The position numbers and the translations under genes were made by a program. Of a DNA stretch of 64,000 nt, positions 93 through 62,101 are shown in pieces (within the stretch, counting starts at the first letter, position 1; the number at the start of each line of letters is the position of its first letter). Below the pieces are notes generated by a model. It worked only from the letters and a program-made list of their open reading frames with translations. It did no database searches and was not told the origin of the DNA. The stretch is from Desulfosporosinus sp. FKB. Its GTDB lineage: Bacteria; Bacillota; Desulfitobacteriia; Desulfitobacteriales; Desulfitobacteriaceae. The stretch is from positions 270 to 64,269 of the forward strand of contig NZ_NADJ01000035.1 in the NCBI RefSeq assembly GCF_002196705.1. Direction: 5' to 3'.

Positions 93-250
93 ATCCAATC
101 GTAAGACTCCCATTTCTACAAGTCAGATTGGTTCCCATCCCTTGCTTCGGTGGGGGTAAAGTCCATCCTTCAGCGCGATAACATTTGTTATGGGCCAGCA
201 CTTTCGTCACCGAAGCCCCGATGTTCAGCTTTTGCCGAACGAGTTCACTT
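93..250 (-). repeat. Structured intergenic repeat, copy R1
   Basis: Minus-strand copy of the ten-copy element described in the findings. It runs from GTGAACTCGTTC (near 250) to TTACGATTGGATAAAA (near 92). The long-range stem GCTTCGGTG/CACCGAAGC is intact. About 28 bases in the middle, including most of the GAAAGTGTCC hairpin, are missing compared with full copies. It fills most of the gene-free first 318 bases; the rest shows only a short inverted repeat (AAAGGCGCT/AGCGCTTT, about 11-36) that could be a weak terminator. Confidence 0.85.
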
Positions 251-2314: not shown

Positions 2315-2474
2315 GCCAATCGTAAGACTCCCACTTGTAGAAGTGAGAGTAGTTCCCATACCTTGTTTCGGTGGAGGTAGAGTCCATCCTTCAGCGCGAT
2401 GGCATTTGTTATGGGCTAGGCGCTTTCGGCGAAAGTGTCCACGGCACTTTCGTCAGCGAATCCCCGAGTTCACT
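2315..2474 (-). repeat. Structured intergenic repeat, copy R2
   Basis: Minus-strand copy. The 3' hairpin (CTCACTTCTACAAGTGGGAG on the minus strand) and the GAAAGTG/CACTTTC hairpin are recognisable. The 5' GTTCAGCT/AGCTGAAC hairpin is lost: GTGAACTC runs straight into GGGGATTCG. The similarity to other copies stops at ACGATTGG instead of continuing into GGATAAA, which helps place the right-hand boundary. It lies directly after the stop of the DUF1848 gene. Confidence 0.85.
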
Positions 2475-6263: not shown

Positions 6264-6448
6264 GTGAACTCGTTCAGCTAAAGCTGAACACCGGAGCTTC
6301 GGTGACGAAAGTGTCCTGTGGATACTTTCGTCGAAAGCGCCTAGCCCATAACAAATGCTATCGCGCTGAAGGTTGGACTCTACCCCCACCGAAGCAAGGT
6401 ATGGGAACCACTCCCACTTGAAGAAGTGGGAGTCTTACGATTGGATAA
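6264..6448 (+). repeat. Structured intergenic repeat, full copy R3
   Basis: Full-length reference copy. In order: 5' hairpin GTTCAGCT-AA-AGCTGAAC; a long-range stem (6296-6304 GCTTCGGTG with 6387-6395 CACCGAAGC) enclosing the GAAAGTGTCC hairpin and an AGCGC/GCGCT hairpin; then the 3' hairpin CTCCCACTT/AAGTGGGAG and the conserved tail TCTTACGATTGGATAAA. It lies between the HD and HxlR genes. Confidence 0.9.
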
Positions 6449-6467
6449 ATTTATATCTTGATATGAC

Positions 6468-7912: not shown

Positions 7913-8079
7913 GTGAACTAGTTCAGCTAAAGCTGAACATCGGGCTTCGGTAACGAAAGTGTCCAGTGGACACTTTCGCCGAAAGCGCCTAGCCCATAAC
8001 AAATACTATCGCGCTGAAGGATGGACTCTCCCCTTACCTGAAGCAAGGTATGGGAACCACTCCCACTTGTACAAGCGGA
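7913..8079 (+). repeat. Structured intergenic repeat, copy R4 (3' truncated)
   Basis: Similarity holds from GTGAACTAGTTC to CCCACTTGTACAAG and then stops; the tail TCTTACGATTGGATAAA is missing. The long-range stem keeps pairing through a G-to-A change on one arm matched by C-to-T on the other (GGTAA/TTACC instead of GGTGA/TCACC), with one extra T bulge. A small hairpin, CCGGC-TGCT-GCCGG, follows at about 8091-8104 and may be the terminator of the small gene at 8137-8223. Confidence 0.85.
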
Positions 8080-11689: not shown

Positions 11690-11872
11690 GTGAACTCGTT
11701 CGGCTAAAGCGGAACACCGGGACTTCGCTGACGAAAGTGTCCTGTGGACGCTTTCGCCGAAAGCGCCTAGCCCATAACGAGCGCTAATCGCGCTGAAGGA
11801 TGGAATCTACCCCGAAGCATGATATGGGAATTATTCCCATTTTTAGAAGTGGAAGTCCTACGATTGGATAAG
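11690..11872 (+). repeat. Structured intergenic repeat, copy R5
   Basis: Near full-length copy. The 5' hairpin has diverged (GTTCGGCT/AGCGGAAC, one mismatch). The GAAAGTGTCC stem keeps pairing through a G-U wobble (GGACGCTTTC), and the tail CCTACGATTGGATAA is present. The stretch before CGAAGCA is shortened, which removes part of the long-range stem. It starts 19 bases after the flavin reductase stop. Confidence 0.87.
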
Positions 11873-16392: not shown

Positions 16393-16574
16393 GTGAACTC
16401 GTTCAGATAAAGCTGAATATCGGGGCTTCAGATACAATAATGTCCAGTGGACATTATTGCCGAGCCGCCTTTCCCAATAGGAATACTTAGCGGCGAAGGA
16501 GGACTCTACCCCACCTGAAGTTAACGAAGGACTCACCCCCACTTATAGAAGTGGGGGTCTTAAAAACTGGATAA
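16393..16574 (+). repeat. Structured intergenic repeat, divergent copy R6
   Basis: The most diverged full copy, and the best evidence for a conserved fold. The central hairpin is CAATAATGTCC (16435-16445) with GGACATTATTG (16449-16459), 11 perfect pairs despite several changes from the common GAAAGTGTCC form. The long-range stem is CTTCAG (16426-16431) with CTGAAG (16515-16520). The third hairpin is GCCGC (16464-16468) with GCGGC (16490-16494) in place of AGCGC/GCGCT. The tail reads AACTGGATAAA. Confidence 0.88.
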
Positions 16575-18154: not shown

Positions 18155-18445
18155 AAACCCTTCGTCTCTAATTGAGACGAAGGGTTAATTCGCGGTACCA
18201 CTCAAGTTGACAACATAAGTTGCCTTCTCTGCCAGATACGGGACCTTTTCGAGGTTTTTAACATGACTTCGATGATCCGATATCCTCTTCCTTGTAACGG
18301 TGGAAGATCCGTCCGAGCCTACTTTAACAATCAATTTCGGTCGGCTACTCGAGGAAGAGTTCTAATTCTATCCCAAAACTGCCTTGCACCATCCGGCAGC
18401 TCGCTGACATGGAAATCTGAATTGTAATAGTTCCTCTCATCGTCG
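18155..18445 (-). promoter_or_regulatory. T-box leader (Leu) upstream of leuA
   Basis: On the minus strand: Stem I base GAGGAACT...CTTCCTC, the conserved GTTACAAGGAAGAGG segment, the T-box core AGTGGTACCGCG (18191-18202) and a terminator AACCCTTCGTCTC/GAGACGAAGGGTT (18156-18186). The specifier aligns with CTC (plus-strand GAG at 18357-18359), a leucine codon, matching the downstream gene. A TTGACA/TATAAT pair lies upstream (18460-18491) with a wide 20-base spacing. Confidence 0.88.
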
Positions 18446-18603
18446 TTTTAGCATTTTTTATTATATTGACACTACTTCATATAAATGTCAAGACTTTTTT
18501 AGAATTCTACTCAAAAAAATCGTCTGATCTATAACAATTCTCTTTGCTTTAAGGCCAAGATTCCTTAATTTAAGCTTTTAAAATGTTTCCAATTCAAAGA
18601 GAA

Positions 18604-18640
18604 GTGAACTCATTCAGCAAGGTATGGGAACCACTAACCC
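18604..18640 (+). repeat. Internally deleted remnant of the repeat, copy R7
   Basis: GTGAACTCATTCAGC is fused directly to AAGGTATGGGAACCACT, so about 130 bases of the element are deleted; the 3' hairpin and tail are also gone. It is the smallest recognisable copy. Confidence 0.65.
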
Positions 18641-24738: not shown

Positions 24739-25000
24739 AAGTTTCTCATCCCTGACGGGACGAGAAACATTATCTCGTGTTACCACCCAACTTTTGGCTA
24801 TAAAGCCACTCGACAAGGTACGGGAATGATATCCGATACCCTCTTCCAGTTAACGGGGAAGAACCGTCCTAGCCTACTTTTTTTGTTCAGCCGGAAGCTC
24901 AGGAGGGAACTTCAGCTATTATCACACATAGAAGAGCTTGCAGTCATGACCCTTCCTCCCTGAACGATAATATATAGCCTACTTTTCTCCGTCTTTGCTT
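24739..25000 (-). promoter_or_regulatory. T-box leader (Phe) upstream of aroF
   Basis: Complete T-box on the minus strand: Stem I base TCAGGGAGG...CCCTCCTGA, the conserved GTTAACTGGAAGAGG segment, Stem III GGCTTTATAGCC, T-box core TTGGGTGGTAACACG (24779-24790) and terminator GTTTCTC-TCCC/GGGA-GAGAAAC (24741-24768). The specifier aligns with TTC (plus-strand GAA at 24907-24909), a phenylalanine codon. The remaining bases to 25220 hold no gene. Confidence 0.82.
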
Positions 25001-25220
25001 TTAAGGATTTAATTAATAGTATTATAACAGAAGCGTGATGTTTGTCAACTGTGTATATTAGAAAATTATTCGTTATTGACCTTTGTATAGCATGATCCCT
25101 TAAAGGAAAAAATAAAGAAATCTTAAGTCTATTTTAAGGTTAATGTTGTAAATTTACAGTGTACCACCGCAAATCTCTTTATAAATACCATACTGCCGTT
25201 AGTGGAAAGGAGTTTTGAAT

Positions 25221-27148: not shown

Positions 27149-27223
27149 GTGAACTCGTTCAGCTACAGCTGAACATCGGGGCCACTCCCACTTGTAGAAG
27201 TGGGAGTCTCACGATTAGATAAA
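27149..27223 (+). repeat. Internally deleted copy of the repeat, R8
   Basis: The 5' part GTGAACTCGTTC...GAACATCGGGG is joined directly to CCACTCCCACTT-GTAG-AAGTGGGAGTC and the tail ACGATTAGATAAA. Both terminal hairpins survive while the ~110-base structured core is gone. Confidence 0.85.
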
Positions 27224-40824: not shown

Positions 40825-40930
40825 TTGCCGCAATTTGTAATCATAGTCTTCTTCTTTTAAAAAACTTAACTTAGACAACTAATGCACTGTTGTGACGAAT
40901 AATGTACATCGACCAGTGAAATGATAAAGA

Positions 40931-50190: not shown

Positions 50191-50265
50191 GTGAACCCGT
50201 TCAGCTAAAGCTGAACATCGGGGCTTCCCACTTGTAGAAGCGAAAACCTTACGATTGAATAAAAA
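50191..50265 (+). repeat. Internally deleted copy of the repeat, R9
   Basis: GTGAACCCGTTCAGCT...GAACATCGGGGCTTC is joined to CCACTTGTAGAAG and the tail CTTACGATTGAATAAA. Deletion removes the core and half of the 3' hairpin but keeps both ends. The remaining bases 50012-50333 hold no gene. Confidence 0.8.
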
Positions 50266-55562: not shown

Positions 55563-55747
55563 GGTAAACTCGTTCAGCTAAAGCCGCACATCGGGACTTC
55601 GGTGACGGAAGTGTCCTGTGGACACTTCCGCCGAAAGCGCCTAGCCCATAACAAATGCTACCGCGCTGAAGGATGGACTCTTACCCACCAAAACAAGGTA
55701 TAGAACCACTCCTACTTGTAGAAGTGAGAGTCTTACGATTGGATAAA
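55563..55747 (+). repeat. Structured intergenic repeat, copy R10
   Basis: Near full-length copy. The central hairpin is GGAAGTGTCC/GGACACTTCC, an A-to-G change matched by T-to-C on the other arm. The 5' hairpin is broken (AGCCGCAC). The left boundary reads GTAAACTCG instead of GTGAACTCG. The tail CTTACGATTGGATAAA is intact. It lies between mglC and the ROK-gene terminator. Confidence 0.88.
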
Positions 55748-61948: not shown

Positions 61949-62101
61949 TTCACTCTCGCACCTCCCCGCCATCAATCCCTTTGTTAATTATTATACCATT
62001 CTTCTGGAATGAACGCATTAGCTCTACCTAAGGTTCTTTGTCGACAGCAAATTATCATGTCATTTGCTGTCGAAGCAAAGCAATTTCAGACATAATTACT
62101 C

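Follow-up and report, generated by a model that had tools for sequence, protein, structure and literature searches.

A probable PATE-like, gene-less IS200/IS605-type element of Desulfosporosinus with an internal guide that covaries with its landing site

The closest kind of element to the one analyzed here is the palindrome-associated transposable element (PATE) of Haloquadratum walsbyi (PMC3119063), and one PATE-like sequence has been described in Halanaerobium (PMC7290912). As far as the consulted sections of these accounts go, PATEs and the present element are alike in lacking inverted terminal repeats, target duplications and genes, in having near-terminal palindromes, and in occurring as many copies with ends-only forms and insertion polymorphism. 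Small elements (SMR-A) insert into the PATE palindromes of Haloquadratum, according to the same part of the literature (PMC3119063). In those sections a parent IS is reported for some PATEs only, which were traced to IS605 elements, whereas for the present element no parent IS was found at the loci examined. It also differs from PATEs in its modular, covarying 71-nt two-hairpin units, which can be inverted and nested, in its spread over a family including Desulfosporosinus, and in having two guide alleles with matching target sets. Among complete insertion sequences, ISDra2 inserts 3' of a pentamer (PMC2806898) and IS608 3' of a tetramer, as stated in the excerpts available; on the same footing, both share with the element a guide 5' of the left hairpin, a preference at +1 and subterminal hairpins (PMC5934647). 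Unlike them, the element has no tnpA or tnpB, its left-end (LE) and right-end (RE) hairpins are dissimilar, and it targets TTNAT, in which N varies with the guide. BOX elements of Streptococcus pneumoniae are modular repeats with hairpins and variable middle parts; in the present element, by contrast, hairpins enclose middle units in nested and inverted form, and ends and target follow the logic of IS200/IS605. In a literature search that left most subscription journals outside its coverage, we recognized no published account of such Desulfosporosinus repeats or of nested IS605-type miniature elements.

We put at about 85% the probability that each copy is a PATE-like element of IS200/IS605 type that carries no transposase, has its target chosen by an internal RAGA guide and depends on a helper in trans.

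Copies, ends and target site

The window, that is the whole 64,000-nt stretch analyzed (G000:C29:270-64269), had been given ten copies of a structured element by a first-pass annotation. All ten places are real: covariance model R1 matches nine (E 8.7e-76 to 1.8e-16), its training alignment having included the window copies at 6264, 11690, 16393 and 55564 and excluded those at 90, 2311, 7913, 27149 and 50191, and the tenth is a 37-nt remnant that is also present in relative G001. The R1 search found no additional full copy in the 64-kb window. The features, in window positions, are as follows.

6264-6444, minus strand: type copy, element body (R1 228.8 bits), LE at 6444 and RE at 6264, limits taken from the empty sites
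6445-6449, minus strand: target pentamer TTTAT (top strand ATAAA), host DNA; the corresponding pentamer is present in both empty sites
6433-6436, minus strand: left guide G_L, AAGA, adjoining the LE hairpin; strongest flank-element covariation; the final base may take part in the hairpin as well
6410-6433, minus strand: LE hairpin (helix 5, 91.9% of cells paired)
6272-6289, minus strand: RE hairpin with CTTTAG apex (helix 1, 91.6% of cells paired)
6264-6269, minus strand: RE terminal GTTCAC, where GTGA had first been read; junction end in the filled/empty pairs
6305-6376, plus strand: 71-nt-type two-hairpin unit (P3+P4) within the P2 stem (R2 86.7 bits; an R2 training sequence)
95-248, plus strand: copy whose unit has a deletion, target TTTAT (R1 140.7 bits); G001 has a longer copy at the same site
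2316-2473, plus strand: copy with RE hairpin deleted and degenerate target (R1 150.5 bits)
7913-8079, minus strand: copy with truncated LE end (R1 167.6 bits)
11690-11867, minus strand: copy, target CTTAT (R1 178.7 bits)
16393-16570, minus strand: copy of a second subfamily, target TTTAT (R1 174 bits)
18604-18640, minus strand: fused-end remnant of 37 nt (no R1 match; 20-nt exact BLAST piece; right-end profile E 0.0038)
27149-27218, minus strand: ends-only copy without interior, target TTTAT (R1 73 bits)
50191-50258, minus strand: ends-only copy without interior, target TTTAT (R1 54.5 bits)
55564-55742, minus strand: copy, target TTTAT (R1 189.6 bits)
61983-61984, no strand: empty site TTTGT/T, filled by an element in G001

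The proposed covariance-model search of this genome and its relatives was carried out. In the own genome (G000, 5.12 Mb) R1 gave 150 matches, two pairs of which overlap, and thus at least 148 places; this is a lower bound, as 150 of 1254 candidates were scored and all 150 matched. Across the family, 43 of the 45 genomes had matches, and 8 of the 9 genera were represented. In G038, copies that are 99-100% alike have different flanks.

Read in IS200/IS605 orientation, the layout is TTNAT/CCAATCGT-RAGA-LE hairpin-interior-RE hairpin (CTTTAG apex)-GAGTTCAC/T (slashes mark junctions), and in these terms the copies lie on the strand opposite to that first assigned. The comparison of empty sites that had been suggested gave two clean filled/empty pairs: G038 is filled (gtctcTTGAT/CCAATCGTGAG...GAGTTTAC/tctctaat) where G039 is empty (gtctcTTGATtctctaat), and G001 is filled (cccTTTAT/CCGG...GAGTTCAC/taattatt) where the window is empty (cccTTTGTtaattatt). 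It follows from the two pairs that the element starts after TTNAT (TTGAT in the first pair, TTTRT in the second), ends with TTCAC or TTTAC and duplicates nothing. The predicted absence of a target duplication was thereby borne out at these two sites, and mobility is seen as insertion polymorphism between relatives. Several other polymorphic sites (2316, 7913, 16393, 27149, 55564 and the G001 site near window position 40883) were left uncounted as unclean, the genomes differing there by more than the element; the site at 11690 was not alignable to G001. In G002, the site homologous to the 11690 copy holds ggaccgtcccc with its inverse, a sequence similar to the second repeat, gaccgtccccctgacac, described below.

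The same junctions revise the limits proposed earlier. The GTGA taken for the left end corresponds, in reverse complement, to the TTCAC with which the element itself ends on the right, and is absent from both empty sites. In the "fixed tail" the last five bases, ATAAA, are the target site. Since the orientation had been inverted, the flank proposed as a guide past the right end turns out to be the target motif TTNAT. GTGA at that left end resembles the context of HEARO RNAs, and the copies had been compared with these; the junctions take this resemblance away, and in Rfam searches we observed no match to the element at gathering score over the window and none to HEARO at E values up to 10 in the segment 6200-6520. 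We therefore give a HEARO or IscB omega RNA almost no weight. At gathering score the 64-kb window contained no group I intron, as an IStron would have, and no other Rfam RNA family matching the element. Two T-box leaders reach that score, at 18170-18449 and 24753-25004 (minus strand).

TTNAT flanks 74 of 102 distinct copies (TTTAT 38, TTCAT 19, TTGAT 17) and T occupies +1 in 100 of the 102, a set made up of distinct copies above the cut-off of the script, with damaged copies dropped. One of the latter, L113, has GAGA at TTGAT and would agree with the guide-target pattern described below. Eight window copies have a readable left end, with TTTAT at six, CTTAT at one and TCTGG at one. The window site at 6264-6449 is filled in G001 (C8) as well, by a different subfamily in the opposite orientation. 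An inversion in G001 was considered and is disfavored; two insertions on opposite strands are simpler because the target, ATAAATTTAT, is palindromic.

Covariation of guide and target

A scan run blind over 15 flank positions and 19 element positions, with 63 of 71 copies kept, ranked the mutual information of flank position -3 and element position 9 first (z 13.7; next 4.7). RAGA, the tetranucleotide directly 5' of the left hairpin, begins at position 9. When four guide positions were compared with five target positions in 93 copies, eight B-type G038 copies being read one base out of register, the first guide base and target position -3 again stood out (z 15.5; next 3.8). In the 102-copy count, for which a third spacer length was allowed after the register shift had been noticed, guide A stood with target T in 42 copies and with C or G in 6, guide G with T in 13 and with C or G in 33, and 8 copies had another base (p 4.8e-9, a value that, like those below, overstates independence since copies share descent). 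The 27 copies of G038 follow the pattern with no exception, AAGA being at TTTAT in 9 and GAGA-type guides with C or G at -3 in 18 (Fisher p 2e-7; the two guide alleles of this genome are largely two lineages). The association is weaker outside G038 (33, 6, 13 and 15 in the same order of classes; p 0.0013). Nevertheless, the target bases are host sequence, and copy L108, which has an A-type linker but an AAGA guide, is located at TTTAT.

In IS608, as described in the part of the structural work consulted, the guide lies 5' of the hairpin base and forms the pairs A+16:T-3 and A+17:T-4 (PMC5934647). By analogy, a first guide base facing -3 would be in the same register as the IS608 pair. The tetranucleotide matches the flank by covariation, and it departs from strict pairing where GAGA-type guides are at TTGAT (11 of the 18 such G038 copies), which gives a G-G mismatch at -3. 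The landing site thus seems to be picked by a short internal DNA guide, with pairing as the probable means. Together, insertion 3' of a short motif without duplication, the subterminal hairpins and this covariation support the annotation's view of the copies as non-autonomous IS200/IS605-type units.

Hairpins and the modular interior

The claim of a structured element was confirmed by an alignment of 29 sequences in which five helices covary. Of the alignment cells, 91.9% were paired, compared with 87.5% after shuffling and 37-43% with the partner slid; two-sided changes numbered 48 against 13.4 in shuffles, and pairs with such changes 14 against 8.4 (4 of 500 shuffles reached 14), mostly in the interior, where one hairpin has 6 of 11 and the other 3 of 5 pairs of this kind. 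The number of further pair types was not separated from shuffles (39 vs 36.7; 92 of 500 reached it). Folded as DNA, one copy gave z -7.0. Hairpin covariation of this kind cannot distinguish RNA from DNA. The hairpins are subterminal, and terminal inverted repeats are absent, the two ends differing in sequence.

The interior consists of zero or more 71-nt two-hairpin units, defined by model R2, which occur in either orientation, are sometimes nested, are common to different frames and are rarely found alone. We observed single units, inverted pairs on both arms of one stem (L106, L115), inverted units alone (L258, L155:3387-3456) and two units in line (L171); by reading of the sequences, units are nested in the hairpin loop of another unit in L113, L103 and L266, and more deeply in L060. 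Multiply nested units were noted in L057/L273 (G005), L060 (G015) and L266 (G016), the L060 copy being about 317 nt long with three nesting levels by eye. In the examples viewed a unit is usually preceded by GTG, exceptions being the first unit of L171, the inner units of L060 and one unit of L273. Two frameless units lie outside longer ORFs (L068:1499-1568 and L155:17981-18050) and may be left over from former frames that decayed. The 27 copies of G038 fall into two frames, A and B, told apart by the linker, and two interior arrangements (nested, and u1+ with u2-) are each present in both; this indicates that exchange of the interior does not depend on the ends. Units and frames have separable ranges, G044 having 33 frame matches and zero unit matches, and unit matches occur in 41 of the 45 family genomes and weakly in 3 of 28 other genomes of the order. 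We tentatively suggest, at somewhat less than even odds, that the 71-nt unit is a second-order gene-less mobile element whose insertion sites, often after GTG, are the hairpin arms and loops both of IS605-type frames and of units already present, and that it so builds nested, growing hairpins while the outer guide base switches target within one genome.

This modularity bears on the proposal that each copy is a stand-alone omega RNA of the TnpB reRNA type, with its 3' end at GAGTTCAC followed by a flank-derived guide, TnpB encoded elsewhere and TTNAT as the TAM. The ISDra2 reRNA comprises the right end of the transposon and about 16 nt of flank, in the extract consulted (PMC8612924). TTNAT includes the ISDra2 TAM, TTGAT, and the hairpins covary as such an RNA would require. 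The conserved guide-RNA scaffold that had been proposed is, however, not what we observed: whole elements measure 70 to 311 nt (93 copies), with zero to several units in either orientation, some copies are ends only and 11 copies measure 114 nt. Interior length and content thus vary, and no conserved scaffold lies upstream of the guide as in the reRNA (about 150 nt for ISDra2). All nine TnpB matches of the own genome are without element ends within up to 1.5 kb on each side, and nothing found points to a nuclease that uses TTNAT as TAM with the flank beyond GAGTTCAC. Guide-target covariation at the DNA level accounts for the end region without an RNA. On balance an omega RNA is very unlikely, and a gene-less DNA element remains our reading. 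Two copies (G000:C3:117479-117591 and C33:467862-468020) lie about 1.5 and 2.5 kb from own TnpB matches; both match the model end to end and so look like separate elements.

Candidate helper and implications

In the mechanism that we propose, the transposase would be of the Y1 HUH type, perhaps from the ISDra2 group, and would act in trans: it would bind both subterminal hairpins of the element in single-stranded form and cut on the left after the flanking TTNAT and on the right after TTCAC. The element would then be inserted 3' of another TTNAT, nearly always before T, leaving the target unduplicated, and the choice of target would be made through pairing with RAGA beside the left hairpin. 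The frame holds zero or more 71-nt two-hairpin units in its hairpin arms or loops, in either orientation and common to different frames.

The search for tnpA or tnpB genes with a matching right end, which the annotation had suggested, returned none at the TnpA loci examined or at the nine own TnpB matches. No transposase gene with the element's ends, and no related full-length IS with the same ends, was found at these TnpA loci (overlapping sets of 30 loci, 28 stretches, 30 loci and 35 loci). Left- and right-end profiles run over TnpA and TnpB loci matched ordinary separate copies only (L122 = L237 = L315; L232), along with a few weak matches, the best of which (E 0.04; L236/L346, G039:C86) shows no element end by eye and fits no IS. 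One transposase was considered as a partner and rejected. At L237:1150-3130 (G009) lies an IS608-type IS605 with readable TTAC, AAAG and hairpin, the transposase of which was also matched in the PDB, and an element copy is situated some 90 bp upstream of the tnpA gene; the same own ends and hairpin were read for L122, which is the same gene, and the element is a neighbor.

The TnpA of G038 (C31; L230:2604-3017, minus strand) has its best PDB match in 2xm3 (E 5.5e-50), which we take to be ISDra2 TnpA. At more than 60% identity this type occurs in 3 of 73 genomes (G038 99%, G039 94%, G027 66%), far fewer than carry the element, with a 38-residue fragment of 61% identity in G029 and zero matches in the own genome. 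A rule-based search found TTNAT, a matching guide and a hairpin upstream at 5 of 34 loci of G038-TnpA relatives (38-99% identity); as controls, ten base-shuffles gave 0-1 and five random-window sets gave 0. At the other 29 loci the rule yielded no left end, and among the five positives four encode TnpAs that are only 38-48% identical to that of G038. From target code and partial co-occurrence, the helper is perhaps an ISDra2-group TnpA; the loci that supply the target-code argument mostly encode distant TnpAs, which slightly lowered our confidence. Upstream of tnpA at L230 (G038), the left-end hairpin of an ISDra2-like IS seems, by eye against L345, to be split by a short insertion.

Only two PF01797 matches occur in the own genome, both RAYT-like by reading of the sequences, which makes it conceivable that the repeats are REP- or BIME-like sequences moved by these Y1 transposases. 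REPs likewise use a tetranucleotide guide 5' of the hairpin, as the consulted passages state (PMC8266576, PMC6006769). Neither RAYT-like locus has an element within 1.5 kb on either side, however, and the repeat on the flanks of L031, gaccgtccccctgacac, is another one. In addition, the guide is RAGA and not GTAG, and with its two dissimilar hairpins, its TTNAT target and its long interior the element does not resemble single REPs. We consider this origin unlikely, if somewhat less so than an omega RNA, and favor the PATE-like IS200/IS605-type element. The second repeat, gaccgtccccctgacac with its inverse, flanks the own-genome RAYT-like gene at L031 (G000:C22:34633-37965) and L226.

These results also caution that an omega-RNA-like repeat may prove to be a DNA hairpin transposon that was read on the wrong strand. 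With many copies and two guide alleles that have matching landing sites, the element is a large natural experiment on how a DNA guide chooses targets in the IS200/IS605 family. Retargeting of IS608 is known from engineered guides, in the portion of the work cited (PMC5934647); here it seems to occur in the wild, in gene-less elements. The nested, invertible and exchangeable hairpin units represent an unexplained way for repeats to grow.
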